Positions 42,957 through 64,000 of a stretch of 64,000 nt of DNA are shown piece by piece. Each line of letters begins with the position of its first letter. The first letter of the stretch is position 1. Under the pieces are notes generated by a model. The model did not search any database and was not told the DNA's origin. It was given only the letters and a program-made list of their open reading frames with translations. Source of the stretch: Strix aluco (lineage: Eukaryota; Chordata; Aves; Strigiformes; Strigidae); the NCBI RefSeq assembly GCF_031877795.1, contig NC_133932.1:137938841-138002840 (forward strand), given 5' to 3'. A program made the position numbers and the translations under genes.

Positions 42957-44562
42957 GGGGTTCATGCCTGCTTTGCCTCCGTCGTCAGGAGACCCCTTGT
43001 TCTCAGGGTGTCCAGCACGCTGGGTGAGCAGGATGAAGTCCCCGTAATCCCAGGGGAAATGGTTAGAGACCTGCTACCCCCCTCAGACACACACGTCCAC
43101 GGGGCTGATGGGACCCGCCCCGGGGTGCTGAGGGAGCTGGTGGAGCTGCTCACCCAGCCGCTTCCCATCGTTTACCACCGCTCCTGGCTCACCAGGAAGG
43201 TCCCAGCTGACGGGAAAATGTGGCACCTGCCTACAAGAAGGGCCAGAATGAGGATCCAGGGACCTACAGGCTGCCTGCCCTCGAGGTCAGGGAAGGTTGT
43301 GGGGCAGCTCTTGTGGCACGTACAGGACAACGGGGGGACCAGGCCCAGTCAGGGCAGGTTTGTGAACGGCAGGTCCTGCCTGACTGACCCGATCTGCTCT
43401 GATGAGGTGACCCGCGCAGTGGGCGAGGGAAAGGGTGGGCGTGTTGTCTGCCTGGGCTTTAGTAAAGCCTTGGACACCGTTTCCCACAGCGTCCTCCTGG
43501 AGAAACTGCTCGAGGCTTGGACGGGCATCTGCTGGGTCAAAAACCGGCTGGATGGCCGGGCCCAAAGTGTGGTGGTGAAATGGGTGGAACCCAGCTGGTG
43601 GCTGGTCACAACTGGGGCTCCCCAGGGCTCGGTGCTGGGGCCAGCTCTGTCCAGTATCTGTGATCTGCATGAGGGGATCGAGTGCCCCTTTGGTGAGGTC
43701 ACAGACAACACCCACTTGGGTGGGAGTGTTGATCTGCTGAGGGTGGGGAGGGTCTGCAGAGAGATCTGGACAGGCTGGAGCGATGGGCTGAGGCCAACTG
43801 GGGGAGTTTCACTAAGGCCAAATGCCGGGTGCTGCCCTTGGGCCACAACAACCCCCAGCAGGGCTACAGGCTTGGGGAGGAGTGGCTGGAGAGCTGCCAG
43901 TCAGAGAGGGACCTGGGGGGATTGATTGATAATGAGCCAGCAGTGTGCCCAGGTGGCCAAGAAGGCCAATGGCATCCTGGCTTGTGTCAGCACTAGCGTG
44001 GCCAGCAGGGACAGGGAAGGGATCTTACCCCTGTGCTCGGCACTGGTGAGGCCGCCCCTCGATTCCTGGGTTCAGTTTTGGGCCCCTCACTCCAAAAAGG
44101 CCATTGAATGACTCGAGCGTGTCCAGAGAAGGGCAACGGAGCTGGTGCAGGGTCTGGAGCACAGGTGTGATGGGGAGCGGCTGAGGGAACTGGGGGGGTT
44201 TAGTGTGGAGAAGAGGAGGCTGAGGGGAGACCTCATGGCCCTCTGCAACTCCTTGACGGGAGGTTGGAGCAGGGTGGGGGTCGGTCTCTTTTCCCAAGTA
44301 ACAAGTGATGGGATGGGAGGAAAGGGCCTCAGGTTGAGGCAGGAGAGGTTTAGGTTGGATATTAGGAAAAATTTCTTCACTGAAAGGGTTGTCAAGCACT
44401 AGAACAGGCTGCCCAGGGAAGTGGTGGAGTCACTGTCCCTGTATTTAAGACCTGTAGATGTGGTGCTCAGGGACATGGTTTAGTGGTGGCCTTGGCAGTG
44501 TGAGGTTCGTGGTTGGACTCGATGATCTTCTCCAGCCTGACCAACCCGTGACTCTCTGGTTG
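42957..44562 (+). mobile_element. CR1 LINE, 5'-truncated, with reverse transcriptase remains
   Basis: A 1.6-kb CR1 running from the ORF2 reverse transcriptase into the 3'UTR. Recognisable RT pieces include GFSKALDTVSHSVLLEKL, TGAPQGSVLGP and a degenerate catalytic box reading VTDNTHLGG where CR1 has FADDTKLGG, so the second catalytic aspartate is gone. The endonuclease and ORF1 regions are missing. The downstream reading is interrupted by stops and frameshifts. The tail ends in 'ttggactcgatgatctt' and 'ctccagcctgaccaac', without a clear 8-bp repeat. A dead copy of moderate age. Confidence 0.95.
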
Positions 44563-50604: not shown

Positions 50605-51050
50605 ACCGAGTCCTGCAGGTTGGAAAAGCCCCTTGGGATCATCGAGTCCAACCCTCAGCCCGACTCTACAAAGTTCTCCCCTACCCCACATCCCCCCACA
50701 GCTCATCCAAACGGCCCTTAAACACACCCAGGGATGGGGACTCCACCCCCTCCCTGGGCAGCCTATTCCACTCTCTGACCACTCTTGCTGGGAAACATTT
50801 TTTCCTCATGCCCAGTCTGAACCTCCCCTGTTGCAGTTTAAAGCCGTTCCCTCTTGTTCTGTCACTAATTCCCTGGGAGAAGAGACCAGCACCAACCTCT
50901 CTACAACGTCCTTTCAGGGAGCTGTAGAGAGTGATGAGGTCTCCCCTCACCTTCTCCTCCTCACACTGAACAGTCCCAGCTCCTTCCATCGCTCCTCACA
51001 GGGTTCACTCTCCCGGCCCTTCCCCAGCCCCGTTGCCCTCCTCCGTCAGC
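50605..51050 (-). mobile_element. CR1 LINE 3' fragment
   Basis: Reverse-complement CR1 tail nearly identical over long stretches to 15,491-15,731 and to the reverse of 13,471-13,845. Shared blocks include 'cgagtccaaccctcagccc', 'aaagccgttccctcttgtt' and 'gctgtagagagtgatgagg'. The close match suggests a comparatively young subfamily. Confidence 0.93.
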
Positions 51051-53633: not shown

Positions 53634-56600
53634 TCATTTCAGGTCCACATCGAAGTCCAGAACCAGCAGCTTGGTCTCCTCCGTGCCGTTGCGGCTGCCC
53701 ACGGCGCAGACCAGCTTGGTGTTGGAGGCGCGGATGCGCCACACCACGCCCCCGCTGCCCCCACTCTCCAGGGCCACCAGGTTGCGGACAAACTCGCCCG
53801 TCTTGAGGTCCCAGAGCTTGACGGTACCGTCATCCGAGCTGGTCACCACGAACTTGGAGCTGAACTGCAGGCAGGTGACGGCGCTCTGGTGCTTGCTGGG
53901 CCCTGGAAGCAGAAGGACCCGTCAGTCCTGCGCTCCCACCCCAACGTCCGGCTTCTCTGGAGCACCCGCCACTGGGCAGCGCCTGCCCTGCCCCTGCCCC
54001 TGCCCCACACCTGCCCGGCAGCTCCCAGCAGCACTGGGGTGGGAGCGGCTGCGTCCCGCGCTCACCCTGCAGCGTCTGCAGACACTGTCCCGTCTTGATG
54101 TCCCAGATCTTGACCGTGGAGTCGGCGTTGCCGGAGACCAGGATGTTGTCCCGTAACTCCATGCCGCTGGTCAGCGACTGATGCCCCATGAGGGTGTGCA
54201 GACAGTTTCCGCTCTCCACGTCCCACACTCGAATCGAGGTGTCCAGAGAGCCGCTGACGATGTGCGTCCCGTCAAACTGCCCGGGGAGACACGGCTCAGC
54301 GCGGAGCGCTCCGGGCAGGGCCTCAGGGGCTTGGGCACGGCGGAGGGACGTGCTCACGTACCCGCGGGCTAGTCGGGGCGCACGCGCGTTTGCCGGCACT
54401 GTCCCCCCCTCTGGGAGATGGACGTGGGGACGTCGGGGCAGAGCGCGGGAGGGAAGGGGGAGCCGGGTCTCACCTGCAGGGAGTAGACGCGATTGGTGTG
54501 TCCCTGCAGCGTGTGCGTGCAGCTCTCGCTCTCGGGGTCCCACACCTTCACCGTGTAGTCGTAGGCGCCGCTCACCACCTTGTGCCCGTCGTACTGCACG
54601 CAGCGCACGGCCGCCACGTGCCCCATCAGCACGTGCAGGCACTGCCCCGTCTCGATGTCCCAGAGGCGCAGTGTGGCATCCCGCGAGCCGCTCACCACCC
54701 TGCGGGCCAGGGCAGCGCGTCGACGCCGGGCCTCGCCCAAACGGGGTAACCCCGGACACTGCCCCAGGAGCGGCCCCGACTGTCCCCCCACACACACAGC
54801 GGCTCTCAGCGAGAGCTCTGACACCCCCGAGCCCGGAGCAGCCCCCAATCCCGCCCGTACCTGTTGCCGTGCAAGTGCATGCAGCGCACGGTGGAGGTGT
54901 GCCCGTACAGCGTGTGCACACACTCGCCCGTGTCTGCGTTCCACACTTTGAGCGTCCGGTCTGTGGAGCCGCTGATGACGACGCTGTCCCTCATCTGGGA
55001 CGACCACACGCCCCCGGTGTGGCCGACCAGCGTCTGCACGCACTGTGGGGAACAAGAGCCGGGTCTGGGGAAGGCCGAGCTTAGCGGGAGGGAAAAGCGA
55101 TGTGGGATTTCCTCTGGGTGAGGGACGGGCCAGCCCACCCCCTGCAGAGACCCTGGCCCCGCCGCAGGCTCCTCTCCACAGTCACAACCCCTCACTGTTC
55201 TACTCCCAGGTGAGTTCCTCACCCTCCCGGGCTCTGCAGGGTGCTCCACGCTTGCTGACTGCCCATGAAAGCGCACGCACGGCCAGCAATTCCCCTTTTG
55301 TTACTGCACCCACCGACCTGTAGCTAAAACTGTCCTTCCCTCTGCTCCTGCGGCCACGGGACCCACCTGACCCTCTCCCCATGGCAAACGCACCTCAAAG
55401 GTCACTGTTGCCTCTCACTCCTCCCCCTGCCCCTGCAGCCACTCGGCAGAGCAGCCCCGTGACGCGACCGGGGACAAGCGCTCACCTCCCCCGTGACGGC
55501 CGACCACACCTTGAGTGTGTTGTCGTCGGAGCCGCTGACGATGCGGTTGCCGCAGAACTGCAGGCAGGTGATGACGTGGTCGTCGTGTCCCTTCAGCACC
55601 TGGATGGAAAACACCACGTGTCAGTGGTGAGGTGAGGGCAGCCCGGCACAACTGCGGGCCTCAAACGCCTTCGAGAACGGTGGGGGAGCAGCAAGTGCCG
55701 AGGGGAGGAAGGAGAGGGCAGCGAGGGGGAAGAAGGACAATGGGGTCCCTGTAACACCCACCATTCCCTGCTGCTGCTCCACAGGGCAGCAGCAACAGCC
55801 AACTGGTGGCTACTGCTGGGGGACAGTGGGCTACCTGGGGACTATGGATGGGCCTTGTGGCTACTAAGTCCACACAAGCCATCGAGCTCAGAGCTGACGT
55901 TCTGTCCTAGGCCAAGAATGGGCCCACTGGCATGTTTAGGACCACCAGCTCCATTTTCCACACAGAAAAGCTGCACCAGCTGCCGCCTCCCCAGCATGGC
56001 GACGTGTGACGAGGGCAGCAGGGGCGGGCAGAGATCAGGCAGGGCAGGCAGGACCCCGCGGAACGGCCCAGCACGAGGGCAAGCGGCAGCTCGGTGTGAA
56101 AACCGAGCCCAGAGCCGCCTTCTGTGGCCACGTGTTAAACTTTCCTCAGGCAGGGGGACACAGGGTGGGTGTCCCCGTGGGCAGAGCGCTGCTCACGGGG
56201 TGCAGAGCCCAGGGTGTGGGGGTCTGGGAAGGGGCTGCCCGCTCTCTGCTGCTTCCACCCCGTCCCAGCTCCCCTCGCACAAAGCTCCAGAGTCCGGCTC
56301 TCAGCACGGACTCCTGAAAACACCCACCTTGGGGGCTTTAAGCTCCCCGCTGCGCCAGTTCATGTCAATTTTGTGCTGCCGCATGAAGGCAAATTTCCAG
56401 GGGCTGTACATGAAGCCAGGGCTGAGCAGGCGCCGCTTCCGCAGGTTCAAGGGCTCCTCGATGCCTGCGGGGGAAAACACAGCGGGATCACGGGGTCCTG
56501 CCCGTGCCCCGCGCAGCCCTGAGCTGCCGATCCCAGCCCGCGGAGGAGGGGGCTTTACCTTCCTCACGGCACTTCTCTCTCCAAAGCAGGTTATCTTCAG

Positions 56601-59600
56601 CCAAGACCCTCCAGTAGCGACAGGTCTGGGCGGCACGGAGCAGGTCCCGAGGCTCCAGGAACGAGAGGACATAGAGTGCCAGCTGCAGGGGCGGCAGCCG
56701 AGTCAGGCGCGGGCCCCCGTGGCCGGTAACGTACCCAGTGCCGGGGCCAGCCCGTCCTCGCCCTGCCCTCGCCTCACCTCCTTGGGCAGCAGGGAGATGA
56801 AGTCTCTCTGGAACTGGGGCTCAATCACCTGCATCATGTACTTGATCTGGGAGGGCTCGCAGCGATCGATGAGCTCATCCAGAGCCAGGAGCTTCTCTGG
56901 GCCGCTCCAGCGCTGAGGAGAGGGGATCAGTCCCTCCCCTGTGGCCCTGCGCAGCCCCCCGGCCCCTGCCCCGACCCCAGCGCGGGCTCCACAGGCCGGG
57001 GGGGCCGTGGGAACAGCGGGGGCTGCGCTGCCCGGAGCCCGGAGACCAGCCTGGGGGCTCTGAGTCCCTCCACTGGAACACGGGCTGCGTGACAGCGGAC
57101 AGAGCAACAGCGCTCCAGGACGAAGGGCAGCACGAGGGGGCTAATGCCACTTCTGCGTTCCTTTACTCGAGGCAAAACTCACTCAAAACCCACCGTGGGA
57201 CCCAAACCCGGCTGCGGCGGGTGTCACGCAGATGGGTTTCCCAGGGCTCAGCTCCCCTCCCGCGGCCCCGCAAACCCAAAGCTTCTGGGAGGCTGGCGCT
57301 GGGCGAGGGTCCCTGCCGGCCTACCTGGAAGGTGCGGAGCCAGTCCTGCAGCTCGGGCGGGGGGGCAACCGAGGGGATGCGGCGGCGCCGGGCCTGGCCC
57401 GCTTTGGCGTTGCGCAGGTCCCCGAAGGTGGTGGTGGGACTGGGCGTGCAGGGGCCCAGCGTCCTGGGGAGAGACCAAAGCGATGGTGAGACACGCCAAT
57501 GCCTCTCCGGGCGGTTCTCAGACACCGTCAGGCACCAGCTCGAGCCTCCCCCCAGCCAGCCCCCCCGTCGCTCCCACCGGCAGACGCAGCCCCTCAGCCC
57601 AGCGGAACAGCAGAACCGGGCGCCGGCCGGGGGCACCCCGAGGGCACGTGGACCGACCCCCAGCTCAGGCGGGACCAGCCGGGCGGCTTCTGCGTCCCGC
57701 TGAGGACGGAGACCCCGGGGCCTCAGCCAACGCCAGACGACTGAGGGGGGGAGTGGTGGAAGGAGCCCCCCCAGCCCGGGCCAGCCCACGGCGCCGAGCG
57801 CTCGCCTCACCTGCTGTACTCTGAGCCCTTGCACAGCTTCTTCCCGGGGGACAGGGCCCGGCCGTCCAGGCCGTGCTCCGACTTCCTCTTCATCTGCGGG
57901 GAGAAGGCAAGTCAGGGCGGGCGGCAGGGGGCCCACTGCGTGCTGGCTGGGCCACGGCTCTTCTGCCAGGAGCGACGGAGCAGGAGACCCAGGCTAGCCA
58001 GCCCCCGGGCCCAGGCTCACACTGCGGGGGCAAGCAGTGGCCACCCGAGCTCTAGAGCTGGCTAAGAGTTAAATTCTGTGGGGGAAAGGGAACCTGGTCC
58101 TTCCAAAGGGAATATTGGACCAAGTCAGGCAGAGAGCTGCACCGCGACAAAAGCGTGGCTGAGAAAAGCTGCCAGTAGCCCTGCTCGGCCCCGCTGCGGG
58201 CACGGCTCGGCAGGGAGCAGGCAGAGCTGTGGCCCGACCTCGGCACGGCAGCAGAGCGCACCGACACGGCTGCATCGAGGGAACCTACATCCCTCCAGCT
58301 CCGCACAAGAAGGGGAAGGTGGGGAGAGCAGGGTGGCCACCAGCCAGGGCTGGCAGGTGCCAGAAGGCGAGTGCGGGCCTCCCCAGCCCGGGCCGGGAGC
58401 GGGGGGCTCCTTCCCCCCAGGACCTGACCCGGGCGGCAGCCACAGCCCCCGCAGGCCTCCTGCAGGCCCCTGCCCGACCCCCCAGCGGCGTCCTGCTGCC
58501 CCAGTTCAGGCTCTGCCGGGGACTGGCACGGCCGGGGACTGCCAGCAGTGCTCAGACGGGCCAGGACGGTGCCGCCATCGCCAGCCCCCGCAGCCAGGCT
58601 GTGCTCAGCCGAGGGCCCCGGGGCTCCCTGGCGCATCCCGGGGTCCGCAGCAGCAGTGGCAGCCACACACCCCCCCTGCAGTCGGAGCCTGGAGTGTTAT
58701 GACAGCCCGTGGCCCGCTCTGGCCACAGCAAGCAGAGGGCAGCTGTAGGCTTCGAGGCCACCGGCCACCAGGACGGGACCACAGTGCCAGCGTCAGCTCG
58801 GGCCTCCTGGGGCCAAGCCCTGGCCTGGGGCCGTGCTCGCAGCAGCGTTACCTTGGGCCGAACGTGACGGAGGAGGCCGCCGTCCTCCGTCCGCTGCAGG
58901 TAGTCTATCCAGCGCTCCCCGATGGTGTAATAGAAGTAGACGTTGCTACCATCCTCCCCTTCCTCACTGTAGCAGCTCCCCTCTTCCTCTTCTTCCTCCT
59001 CCTCCTCCTCCTGCTCCCTGCAGACTGTGGAGCTGACCGGCTCCTGTGCCCCTCGCCCACTGGAGCCGTCGGCCTCAGGTCCTGACCCGGGGCTCCCCTT
59101 CCCAGAGCGCTCGGGCTCCCAGGGGCCTGAAACATCCTCCTCCTCCTCCTCAGCCACCGCCTACAACAGGGGGAGAGGGAGAGGCAGTGTCAGGCCTGCA
59201 GCTCTGCGCCCCAGCTCTCGGGGTGCCCGGGGCCACGCGGGGGAGCCGCCAGCTGCAGCAACGGCCCAGGGAGGGAAGAGGAGAGGGTGAGCTGAGCAGA
59301 GCCAGAGAGGGGAGCGGCACATGGAGCCGGGGCACTCTCTGGGGGGCCATGGGGCAGCCGCGGGGCAGCTGGTCACTCCCCAGCCCCAGAGGGAGCACAG
59401 CGTGCGGCGGCCGCCCCACGACCCGGCCGAAAGCGGCGCCGGACACCACCCCAGCTCCTCTCTGCGCCACCGGGAACAGCCCCCCGCAGCGCGGCGCCCG
59501 TGCCCAGGCGGGACCCCGCGTCAGAGGAGGCACATGGCAGCCTCCCACCCCGCGCCGAGGCCCCTTTGCCCTCCGGCGATGGCCAGGAACCTGCCGGCAC

Positions 59601-62600
59601 CTTCCTGCCCAGAGAGGGCAGTGCTGTGAGTAACACCCCAGCACCAACACAGAAACGTTCGGTAATTGCTTGGAGGAAGCAGAACAACGCCCCTGCATCA
59701 CCCCGGAACGAGGAACTGTTTTCCAATACACTAATAAAACACCTCAAGCAGCAGCCCGGGATAATTTGCACCTCAGAGGCCTGGGAGCAGCACAGGAGAT
59801 CACCAGCCCACAGCAATTAATTTTGGTAAATCCTGGAACACAGGGAAAACTGCAAAGACCAGGGGAGTGTGCGAGTTGTGCCAAAACCGAGGAAGGCAGG
59901 AGAAAAGTGAGTGTTTACAGAGCCTGACATCGGGCAACCGAGAGGCCAGTGGGGGATTCAACCAGTAAAAGATAAATGACAGGAAGGTGCTTTGTACCAG
60001 CTGATGGGACTTTATGAAAATAGGGCTTTCCAAATAAAACTGAGTTTATTCCTTGAAGCGTTACATTTGGTTAAAAAAAGCAATTCCATAGGTCACGCCG
60101 ATGAGATGCACTCATACACCTGTAAGCGTCTGACCAGGGCACAGGCTTCTGGTGAGAAGGGGGACGCTGGTGGCGGCTTAGATCAAGAAAGAGCCCATGA
60201 GCAGACCTCAAAATGCACCTGTTGACGGGAAACTGCAGATTTTCTGCTGATGGGCCTAGTGCAGGCCTAAAGGGGGGGTGTGGAAAACCACAGCCGTCAA
60301 GATTTGTGTTATTTGTAAGATGGAAGCAGATAAAATCTTTTCTGAGTAAATTTCAAGCCTGACGCTCGGGTGGGCAGCAAGGACAGGACAGTCCCACATT
60401 AAACACATTTCAGTGCGCCCGGAGGCAACGTTCTCCACCTAAAGACAGGGAGGGCAGGGAGCCAGCCCGGGACTGCGTGTCCTCCAAAGCAGTAACTAGG
60501 GAGGACCGAGGGGTCACACTCGGCACAAGCTTTGGGCTCAAAAGCCTGAAGAGGGAAGAAGTGTGAGCAGGAGAGCAGTGCTACCCCCAGGCTGCCCTGG
60601 ACGCTCAGTCCTGCCATGCCCAATCCACGTTTTCAAAATGCTTAAAACTTGGAAGATACCGCTCAATCTCCTCCCCCAAACGATTCAAAATCTGGAGAAA
60701 ATATTTTAGAGGAGAACAAATGGAGAGGTGATTCGGTCACAATGCAAAAAATACCCGTGGGGAAGGGAAAGCCCCAGTGCTTTGCAGGGCTCTGCCCAGC
60801 ACTGCCACGCTCCCCGCAGCTGCAGTGGGTTTATCGACATCTAGAAACGAGGCCTCGGTTCAGCACCTGCCCCTGACGAGTCCCCAGCCCGCGGGCAGAC
60901 TGGTCACCGCTTCACACGCCCAGTTCGACGGGGCCCTGTCTGGCAGGTTGGCCGGGAGCGGGGTCGGGCCCTCGGGCAGAGCTCTGAGCCCACAGCCCGT
61001 CCGGACACACCTTCTCGGGAGGGAGCCCCGAACCCAGGCGCCTCCTGCCCTTTCCCTGGCGTCTGCAGCGGGGGGTCACACCTCGGTCTGATGGTGACAG
61101 ACCTCGGGACGACACCTCCCTGTCGCCGACACCTCCCAGGCAGTCACGCCCCTCCCCACACCCCCTGTCCTCTGCCTGAGCTGCTCTTGGCAGGTGGATT
61201 TCCTCAGCCCCCAACAGCTCCATGACGGGGCAGAGCTTGGCAGGAGACACGGCCTGCTGGGCTGCCGGGCCGGGGGAAGAATCTCTCTCCACACCCAGTT
61301 GTGGCCTCCAGTGACGAACCACGAGTGGAACGGCAGGACTGCTGGCAGCAGCCCCCAGGGTGGCGGCCGCTCGGGGCAGGGGGGCGGCAGGGAGCCTCGA
61401 GGGCCTGGTGTTTCTCTCAGGGCAGAGGCATCACAGCAGCCAGAGCAGCTCCCGGCCGGGCTCCGCACTCGGGGGCCGCCACGGCCTCCGCAGGGCACCC
61501 CAAGGCCCGCTGGGCCCCGAGCACCTTGGCCCCCCACCATGACGCTCCCCCAAGCTCCCCCCTTATGGGGAGACTGCGGACAGACCGCGGGGCTGTGACA
61601 GGGCGCAGCATCCCCAGGGCCTCCCGGTGCCCAACGCAGGCACACCCCCTGCTCTGTCCCTGCCCAGCTACCCCCAGCGTGAGAACCCCCCGGCTCCGGC
61701 GCTGCTGGAGGGGGATCACGCCAAGCGGGGAGGCGGGGGAACCCCACCTTTCTTTTCCTACCTGCGGCACAGGAGCTTTACTGTCCCCCTGCAGAGCAGG
61801 GCTCCCCCTCGCAGCTTCCTCATTGCTCGGCCTCCTCCTGCAAGTCATCCGCTGGCTGTTCAGCTCCAAGATGCGGGTGGTGATGCCTTTGACGTGGAGG
61901 AGATCATCGAGGGAGTTGAAGCCCTTCAGTTCCTGCGAGAACAGACGTAAGATGCGACACAGAGCCAGGAAACCCAGGGACCAGCCTCCAAGCAGGACCA
62001 AGCTTACTCACACCCTCCTCAGACAGGCTCTTTCCTGGCCGGTCCAGACCCACCAGTTTGCACCTCTCAGACCCACCAGCTCCCTTTAGACCTTCAGGAG
62101 AAAGAGCTGGGGGGGGCACAGCAAGGCGATCCCCTTGTACTGCAAGTCCTGGCTGCCGCTGCCTGCCAAGGTAAGGGATTCCCCTGCCCAAAACAGCCCT
62201 TCCCGTGGAACCTCGCTGTCCCCAGCGGCAGCAGGCAACAGCCCCCCCGAGCTGCTCCAAACCCAAAGGCCAGAAGCTCAGACAGGGGGGTTGTGCCTCC
62301 CAGCTGAGCAGCACCAAGGCTGGGGCCTTCCCTGCCCCACGCAATCGCCCTCGTCTGCAGCTCCAGAGAACGGGATGAGCCCCGGGCTCCTGCCGAGCGT
62401 GTGCGAGGACCCCCGGTGCTGCAGAACACAGGTCAGGCACCGCCCAGCCCCGCGCTCCCGCCGGCCGCTGCTCCCCCCTCCGAGGGCCCAAACCCCCGAG
62501 GGCCGGCCCAGCCGTCACCGGGGCAGAGGGGCGCAGCGTGGGGAGCGTCCACCGTTCTGGCTAACGGCGTCAGGGCCGCGACGAGGCTCCCACCATCCTC

Positions 62601-63764
62601 TCAAACCCGTCGTGCATCATTTTAAGGCGTTTCGGCCGCCTCTCCCCTGCAAGGGCTTCACCCCACAGCCCGGCTCCAGGGACAAGCCCCGTTCCCGTGA
62701 GCCCGCGCTCACCTGTTCTCCCACCGCCGGTCCCCGCGGTTAACGCCTCTCGCTCCTCCGCCCCCCCGTGTTTACATTCCTGCCGCGTTCATAACCGGTG
62801 ACCCTGCCCCTCTCAGCCTCCTCTTTTCCAGGCCAAAAAAAGTGGAGCTCCTCCAGCCCTGCCCTGCCCAGGCAGCCTCCCCTGCCCCGCTTCCTCCTGC
62901 GACACCGATGCCGGGTCCCAGCCGCGATCTCGCCGGTTCTTCGCAGCGTTAACGGCAAAAAAGCGCCGTTAATGTCGCGGTCTCTGCTAAAGGCAGGTGC
63001 AGCCCGAGATCTCGCGACCCTTCCCAGGGCCGGGCCCGTCGCCCGCCGGCCCCGCCGCTCCCGAGCGCTCCACCGAGGGCAGCGGCGGGATCTCCAGCCC
63101 AGCGCGGCCGCACCGGGCGGGCTCCTGCCCCTTCCCCCGGGAACTCGCGGGGTTTCTCCGCTCTTCGCACGCAACGTCGCCGGCCGCCAGCCCCGGGGCT
63201 CTGCCCCCAACCCCAGCGACGAGGGACCCGCCGGGCCGGGCCGCCCGCAGACGGGCGGGGCTCCCCGGGAGAGCCGCCCTGCACCGGGGGCCGCCGCCCG
63301 CTCCCCCCCCGTGCCTGCGGACGGACCGGCGGCTCCCTCCCCCCGCTCCCCTGCGGCAGCCCCAGGCGCTGCGCCCGGAGGCGGCCGCTCGTCCCGGGGG
63401 GGGCGGCCGCAAACGGCCCCGCCTGCCCGTCCGCGGAAGCCGGGGGGAAGCAGCGCTGCCGCCCGCGCCGGTACCGGCCGCACCCGCCCCGGGGCCGGCG
63501 GGTCAGCGGAGGCGGCCGGTTGCCCCGGGACGGGCGGCCCCGCCTGAGCCCCGGCACCCCCAGCCCCGCTCCCGCGGGCCCCGCCGCCCCCGCCCAGGCC
63601 CGGCCGCGGCACGGGGCCGCCCCCGCCCGCACCTCTCTCTTCCGCACGATACCGCGGGCGCGGCGGCGGCCGATGCCGCTGAGCGCCCCCTCCAGCTCGG
63701 CCACGCCGGCGCGGTTGATGTCCAGCTTCCCCCCGCCGGGGCCCGGCCCGCCCGGCCCCGACAT
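53634..63764 (-). CDS. FBXW7-like: FBXW7-like F-box/WD40 protein with N-terminal helix-hairpin-helix, complete, 13 exons
   Basis: Predicted substrate receptor of an SCF ubiquitin ligase. Exons: 63633-63764, 61762-61932, 58852-59160, 57811-57893, 57325-57463, 56778-56912, 56559-56682, 56328-56464, 55486-55599, 54861-55042, 54474-54699, 54066-54276 and 53634-53902. All are GT-AG and phase-compatible, giving 743 aa. Residues about 13-75 form a ComEA/EEPD1-like helix-hairpin-helix ([19 protein letters not shown], then [13 protein letters not shown]). Residues 102-204 are acidic with E10 and a tyrosine-rich end. [19 protein letters not shown] resembles the FBXW7 NLS exon. The F-box is about 314-360 ([19 protein letters not shown]). 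Eight WD40 blades run from 411 to VLDFDVDLK at the C-terminus. Phosphodegron arginines equivalent to human R465, R479 and R505 are present (R501, R515, R541). It lies beside ARFIP2 and TRIM3, so it is an FBXW7 ohnologue. The two 5' exons are assigned by phase and strand, not by transcript data. Confidence 0.88.
59161..61761 (-). other. FBXW7-like intron 2
   Basis: A 2.6-kb intron, GC-rich at both ends and AT-richer at 59,640-60,760. No repeat family, RNA gene or alternative exon was recognised. Confidence 0.5.
61933..63632 (-). other. FBXW7-like intron 1
   Basis: A 1.7-kb intron, CpG-dense toward exon 1. Long composition-driven frames are present on both strands; nothing was recognised. Confidence 0.5.
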
Positions 63765-63906: not shown

Positions 63907-63912
63907 TTTATT
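63907..63912 (-). terminator. Polyadenylation signal of the upstream RRP8-like gene
   Basis: AATAAA on the minus strand, about 50 bp after the stop at 63,965-63,967. Confidence 0.8.
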
Positions 63913-63964: not shown

Positions 63965-64000
63965 TCAACGGCGCTTGTAGCGGCAGGGCCGCAGGCGCAG
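63965..64000 (-). CDS. RRP8: C-terminal end of RRP8 (ribosomal RNA-processing protein 8 / nucleomethylin), cut by window edge
   Basis: The last 11 codons and stop of a minus-strand gene, reading LRLRPCRYKRR. The ending PCxYKRR resembles the C-terminus of the Rrp8 SAM-dependent methyltransferase family, which makes m1A in large-subunit rRNA and sits in the nucleolus. The polyadenylation signal follows. Position supports the call, since RRP8 follows TIMM10B (and DNHD1) on human 11p15.4 on the opposite strand to TIMM10B. With only 11 residues visible, the assignment rests mainly on this motif and gene order. Confidence 0.68.
   Translation of the reverse strand: MRLRPCRYKRR

Follow-up and report, generated by a model that had tools for sequence, protein, structure and literature searches.

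A helix-hairpin-helix domain at the N-terminus of FBXW7L, an ancient paralogue of FBXW7 in the owl Strix aluco

Few tumour-suppressor ubiquitin ligases have been studied as intensively as FBXW7, and work on it has been carried out mostly in mammals. The protein, also called FBW7, hCDC4 or Ago, is a substrate receptor of the SCF (SKP1-cullin-F-box) type and carries a dimerisation domain (D-domain), an F-box and a WD40 propeller pocket behind an N-terminus of its own. We analyzed a window of 64,000 nucleotides from the owl Strix aluco (contig NC_133932.1, positions 137,938,841 to 138,002,840; coordinates below refer to the window unless another contig is given). It contains a gene, here called FBXW7L, in which these three parts are all close to those of FBXW7 and are preceded by a helix-hairpin-helix (HhH) module. 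The closest described systems with such a module are ComEA, a bacterial DNA-uptake receptor with a two-hairpin HhH domain, and EEPD1, a repair protein of HhH-DNase I-like organization.

ComEA is reported to grip DNA through backbone nitrogens of the hairpins together with side chains (PMC9747964). In the same study, the substitutions K164A and K199A lowered transformation by more than 2 log, while K193A and K197A lowered it only 2-4-fold. K164 is the best conserved among the ComEA residues studied there, and its counterpart touches DNA in the authors' model (PMC9747964). The HhH domains of EEPD1 have likewise been described as DNA-binding domains (PMC4684289).

FBXW7L lies on the minus strand, where 13 exons encode 743 amino acids in an open reading frame running from 63764 to a stop codon at 53634 without internal stops. 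All 12 introns are GT-AG, the frame is consistent throughout, and exons 1-4 start in phase 0. Exon 1 (63633..63764), which ends at a GT donor, contains the start codon and hairpin 1 (residues 1-44); a stop codon is present in frame 5' of the ATG, and homologues P0001, P0002 and P0016 start at the same ATG. Exon 2 (61762..61932), bounded by AG and GT, encodes hairpin 2 (residues 45-101), and its single match in the owl genome is the window itself (contig C2). Exon 3 (58852..59160, residues 102-204) encodes an acidic linker, and exon 4 (57811..57893), starting with MKRK, is the first exon in common with FBXW7. The original prediction, made from the sequence alone, had placed the first three exons and their continuation into the MKRK exon correctly to the base, and the phase 0 junctions were confirmed. 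It had also assigned the module and the F-box/WD40 receptor to one gene, which the 13-exon reading frame and 34 database clusters with the same order bear out. We are nearly certain that the gene and its HhH/F-box/WD40 architecture are real.

Residues 13-70 score 49.6 bits (E 4.2e-13) against the Pfam family HHH_3 (PF12836), covering its profile positions 5-61 of 65. This is far above the gathering cut-off of 27 bits and rules out a chance motif. Both hairpin signatures of the ComEA/EEPD1 type that had been predicted are present. The ComEA HhH repeat model TIGR00426 scored 52.8 bits, 0.3 bits below its cut-off of 53.1. The closest solved structures by sequence are those of EEPD1 (9yi2, 2.1e-7) and ComEA (8dfk, 2e-5). 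Because the HHH_3 cut-off is passed, TIGR00426 is missed and EEPD1 and ComEA are the nearest entries in the PDB, these profile comparisons place the module in HHH_3, close to ComEA and EEPD1 in kind, although formally it is not a ComEA member.

FBXW7L and EEPD1 both have a ComEA-type HhH domain close to the N-terminus, but EEPD1 has two such domains followed by a nuclease domain, whereas FBXW7L has one. No nuclease domain was seen among the 25 of 46 Pfam matches listed for FBXW7L, and the F-box and WD40 repeats occupy the C-terminal 430 residues. FBXW7L accordingly falls outside the EEPD1 family, for which two HhH domains and a DNase I-like domain are the criteria.

The HhH domain is well conserved. 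In an alignment of 22 homologues, the commonest residue made up, on average, a fraction of 0.82 at residues 13-75, 0.96-0.97 in the F-box and propeller, and 0.41 at linker residues 76-150, where 48 of the 75 columns contained enough residues to be included. When 22 FBXW7L proteins were used to build a hidden Markov model (HMM) of the module, 35 of 142 proteins scored at least 77.7 bits, i.e., the 34 database clusters and the owl protein. Scores of 51-58 bits were obtained for 22 more, comprising 19 RRP8 chimeras discussed below, two partial models with about half a domain each, and a hemichordate protein. One fragment gave 12.8 bits, and the 84 proteins without a match were canonical FBXW7 and some FBXW7L models lacking the first exons. 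A second feature that distinguishes the N-terminus from that of FBXW7 is a conserved segment, NVYFYYT..RWIDYL..RPK (residues 174-204, 58852-58944), which directly precedes MKRK. Its mean commonest-residue fraction was 0.75 and no Pfam family matched it; two rays have a shorter, diverged version, and the echidna model does not contain it.

The ligase part follows the FBXW7 order, with an F-box (PF12937, 59.3 bits) ahead of a WD40 propeller. Exon 5 (57325..57463) leads to exon 6 (56778..56912) with the D-domain region, exon 7 (56559..56682) with the F-box and exon 8 (56328..56464) with the linker to the propeller; in the gene model, WD40 repeats are encoded by exons 9 (55486..55599), 10 (54861..55042), 11 (54474..54699), 12 (54066..54276) and 13 (53634..53902), the last of which includes the stop codon. 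With assumed region boundaries, the owl protein shares with gerbil FBXW7 (P0106, 707 aa) 32/38 residues of the D-domain, 44/47 of the F-box, 40/72 of the linker and 304/337 of the propeller. The 12 propeller positions compared are all identical in nine sequences, namely the owl protein, five other FBXW7L, the hemichordate and hagfish proteins and gerbil FBXW7. We take R465, R479, R505, S462, T463, Y519, Y545 and R689 (FBXW7 numbering) among these to be the phosphodegron contacts. Furthermore, residues 298-742 of the gull FBXW7L (P0001) align over 445 residues without a gap to human FBXW7 in structure 7t1y (E 2e-282). From the identical propeller positions and this gap-free alignment, FBXW7L should therefore recognize the same phosphodegrons as FBXW7.

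The original prediction had regarded the gene as FBXW7 with an extra module. We found that it is a different gene: canonical FBXW7 is located on another contig of the owl genome (C4:49.82-49.92 Mb), including a stretch that matches residues 2-211 of the canonical protein. In a tree of 30 proteins, built from the MKRK residue onward and thus excluding the HhH module, 13 FBXW7L from chimaera and sharks to birds formed one group (support 100/99) and 15 canonical FBXW7 from sharks to mammals another (100/98), with the hagfish and hemichordate proteins in neither. The separate locus in the same genome and the separate, supported tree group rule out that FBXW7L is an isoform or orthologue of FBXW7. 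Since each group spans the jawed vertebrates, the split is therefore older than the living jawed vertebrates. These sequence comparisons identify FBXW7L as a separate, ancient paralogue that is intact and conserved across jawed vertebrates. Two models in the tree had longer branches (0.28): that of the coelacanth Latimeria (P0057), which lacks the module and begins near MKRK, perhaps because it is incomplete, and that of the echidna (P0053), which lacks the acidic linker.

No support was obtained for a cryptic HhH exon at the locus of canonical FBXW7. None of the seven HHH_3 matches in the owl genome (E up to 10) fell inside C4:49.82-49.92 Mb, in a search that is weak for split domains: exon 1 of FBXW7L itself scored only 23.3 bits (E 0.09) and exon 2 was missed. 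The match nearest to the canonical locus had 18.8 bits and was 3.6 Mb away. A double HHH_3 match at C1:155.40 Mb is EEPD1, as judged by eye against EEPD1 pieces. Another match, located away from both EEPD1 and FBXW7L, is a 68-aa open frame at C3:34231031-34231174 that covers HHH_3 profile positions 18-65 with 72 bits.

FBXW7L is widely distributed. A protein search with residues 1-204 gave 48 matches among 7305 candidates, from birds, turtles, lizards, snakes, geckos, newt, caecilian, lungfish and platypus. With a lungfish query (residues 1-240, E up to 0.01), 55 of 6072 candidates matched, adding sharks, rays and echidna. A third search used an alignment of seven proteins (residues 1-409) and matched 795 of 8000 scored candidates; the best 120, named by cluster representatives only, were listed and added a chimaera and a hemichordate (HHH_3 50.6 and 61.7 bits, respectively). 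Among the matches listed, no therian or ray-finned-fish protein carried the HhH module, and frogs and crocodilians were seen among canonical FBXW7 only. The survey that the original prediction had proposed, for the same exons in other birds, turtles and crocodiles, was thus positive at the protein level for birds and turtles, and far beyond them, and a crocodilian FBXW7L was not seen. As none was found in placental mammals, an ancient and possibly DNA-tethered branch may therefore be missing from humans and mice.

The hemichordate protein (P0140 of Glandiceps talaboti, 730 aa) begins with HHH_3, followed by an F-box and WD40 repeats, and thus the module may be ancestral. Judged from this distribution, the HhH/F-box/WD40 architecture is at least as old as the living jawed vertebrates and perhaps older. 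A single origin of the vertebrate and hemichordate modules appears likely from the sequences: the module is N-terminal in both, the HMM of the FBXW7L module gives the hemichordate module 57 bits as compared to 27-38 bits for EEPD1 and ComEA pieces, and both proteins have a cysteine just past the HhH domain. It is possible, if less probable, that the module was gained independently in jawed-vertebrate FBXW7L and in the hemichordate, an alternative that concerns the origin only. In the reverse comparison, the hemichordate HhH was about equally close to one ComEA (47.7 bits) and to the best FBXW7L (48.9 bits), which fits separate gains, as does the fact that a single invertebrate example was present among the best 120 of 795 matches.

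No description of FBXW7L or of an HhH-FBXW7 architecture was found in the open-access literature, where a paper on ohnologues deals with the synteny of canonical Fbxw7. Databases already contain the proteins under the names FBXW7-like or RRP8, and their precomputed Pfam matches include the HhH domain. FBXW7L belongs to an established receptor family and carries an ancient module of a DNA-binding type that we found undescribed in that literature. If this is correct, the mammalian picture of the FBXW7 pathway is without an ancient arm, one that combines the same degron pocket with a DNA-binding-type module not found in therians. It also raises the question whether fixing an FBXW7-type ligase to DNA alters which substrates are destroyed.

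To compare DNA-contact residues, ComEA positions were placed in FBXW7L by counting along the ComEA piece of the PDB alignment. Hairpin 1 (GIGRRRAR in the owl) has the G-x-G motif in 35 of 35 FBXW7L, and the K164 position is occupied by arginine in all 35 and by lysine in the hemichordate. ComEA and FBXW7L thus have the hairpin 1 GxG and a K164-type basic residue in common. At the K193 position, FBXW7L proteins have arginine (29), histidine (4) or proline (1) in the 34 sequences with this column filled. This suggests non-specific DNA binding as the most likely role of the HhH domain, with hairpin 1 dominant.

On this basis, we lean, with modest confidence, toward a mechanism in which FBXW7L is a DNA-tethered SCF receptor acting on DNA-bound phospho-substrates, in line with the chromatin- or DNA-tethered ligase suggested in the original prediction. 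The F-box would bind SKP1 and bring the receptor into an SCF complex, the D-domain would pair two receptors, and the propeller, whose pocket is the same as in FBXW7, would bind phosphodegrons. The two-hairpin HhH domain, joined to the ligase part by the acidic linker, would hold the DNA backbone without sequence specificity through hairpin 1, so that FBXW7L concentrated on DNA could ubiquitinate FBXW7-type phospho-substrates bound there. Poly(ADP-ribose) is reported to bring FBXW7 itself to double-strand breaks, where FBXW7 acts on XRCC4 (PMC8573206), and a DNA-local FBXW7-type ligase is therefore plausible. With a DNA module of its own, FBXW7L might bypass recruitment by poly(ADP-ribose).

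Several observations weigh against DNA tethering, in addition to the missed TIGR00426 cut-off. Hairpin 2 reads G-I-T in 29 and G-V-T in five of the 34 readable FBXW7L, and G-x-G in 0/34. The K199 position is mixed (S 17, R 10, others) without a conserved basic residue. FBXW7L, a eukaryotic ligase receptor, thus differs from ComEA in lacking both the K199 equivalent and the GxG of hairpin 2. The first HhH domain of EEPD1 has valine at the K164 position although EEPD1 is the nearest animal relative, and the hemichordate module has glutamate at residues 37 and 41, where FBXW7L has arginine. The net charge of the HhH domain is modest (owl +5, lungfish +6, sawshark +2, hemichordate -1), and a linker as strongly acidic as this one (-20) would make nearby DNA unfavourable. 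Finally, ComE1 of Pasteurella is reported to bind fibronectin as well as DNA, the former via two HhH motifs (PMC2601033).

The last observation, together with the degenerate hairpin 2, would also agree with an HhH domain that serves as a protein- or RNA-binding adaptor and places the ligase, e.g., in a repair or nucleolar complex, without gripping DNA. Human FBXW7 gamma is described as nucleolar (PMC8573206), and the upstream neighbour of FBXW7L, RRP8, functions in rRNA processing, although being neighbours says little about function. We consider such an adaptor less likely than a DNA grip, because hairpin 1 has the full GxG and a basic residue that never varies where ComEA contacts DNA, and because EEPD1, to which the module is closest in sequence among animal proteins, is a nuclease of DNA repair.

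RRP8 adjoins FBXW7L upstream, in tandem on the same strand. The 3' end of its coding sequence (..LRLRPCRYKRR) lies at 63965..64000, with the stop codon at 63967-63965 and a stop-to-start gap of about 200 bp. An AATAAA in this gap (63907..63912, minus strand), about 140 bp ahead of the FBXW7L start codon, is presumably the RRP8 poly(A) signal. The penultimate RRP8 exon is at 64703-64608 in coordinates extended past the window.

RRP8 sequence precedes the FBXW7 part in 20 of 141 database proteins, and 19 of these 20, from 18 bird clusters and one lizard cluster, join FBXW7L exactly at exon 2. These annotation models (e.g., 'ribosomal RNA-processing protein 8 isoform X..') agree with FBXW7L from exon 2 onward, but lack exon 1, and hence hairpin 1, and are fused to RRP8 instead. 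The join is made from the penultimate RRP8 exon in 14 cases (..LGFKSVSK continuing into ELKGF, and variants), from an earlier exon in three and from RRP8 in another frame in two. In P0060 of the manakin Manacus vitellinus, the penultimate RRP8 exon is followed by other sequence and then by the MKRK exon region, without exon 2. Public annotation calls the locus RRP8 in many birds, including P0001, P0005 ('RRP8 isoform X1 [Strix aluco]') and others, which the chimeric models probably explain. Database names at this locus are therefore unreliable, and as the gene is filed as RRP8 or FBXW7, studies of either in birds and reptiles may mix genes.

These models could mean that birds mainly produce an RRP8-FBXW7L read-through, with RRP8 exons in place of hairpin 1, and that the HhH form is minor. 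We regard this reading as improbable. No description of such a read-through in birds was found in the open-access literature. The support for this reading, although it extends to 20 of 141 proteins, consists of annotation models rather than transcripts; the 14 penultimate-exon joins skip the last RRP8 exon, and all 19 joins at exon 2 lose half of the HhH domain. In transcription-induced chimeras, the usual join is from the last-but-one exon to the second exon, which we count against this reading. Moreover, hairpin 1 is kept in lungfish, shark and newt proteins, and the HhH form therefore appears to be under selection. That the two 5' exons come from another gene or were mis-joined in prediction, as RRP8 directly upstream on the same strand and the name of P0005 could suggest, is very improbable and is ruled out by the occurrence of module and FBXW7 part together in 34 database clusters from several vertebrate classes, with P0001 and others using the same ATG, by RRP8 having its own last exon and stop codon at 63965 before exon 1, and by exon 2 still leading into the MKRK exon in the RRP8 chimeras that include it.

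A broader scenario, which we put forward as doubtful, is that the ancestral deuterostome FBXW7 was DNA-tethered. After the vertebrate gene duplication, FBXW7L would have kept the tether, while the copy that lost it became the FBXW7 of humans and mice, and therians and ray-finned fishes would have lost FBXW7L; where FBXW7L survives, read-through from RRP8, by dropping hairpin 1, would release the ligase from DNA. Elsewhere in the window, among open frames inspected by eye, two (44112-44399 on the plus strand and 50684-50995 on the minus strand) look like the 3'-terminal part of a CR1-type bird retrotransposon's reverse transcriptase.

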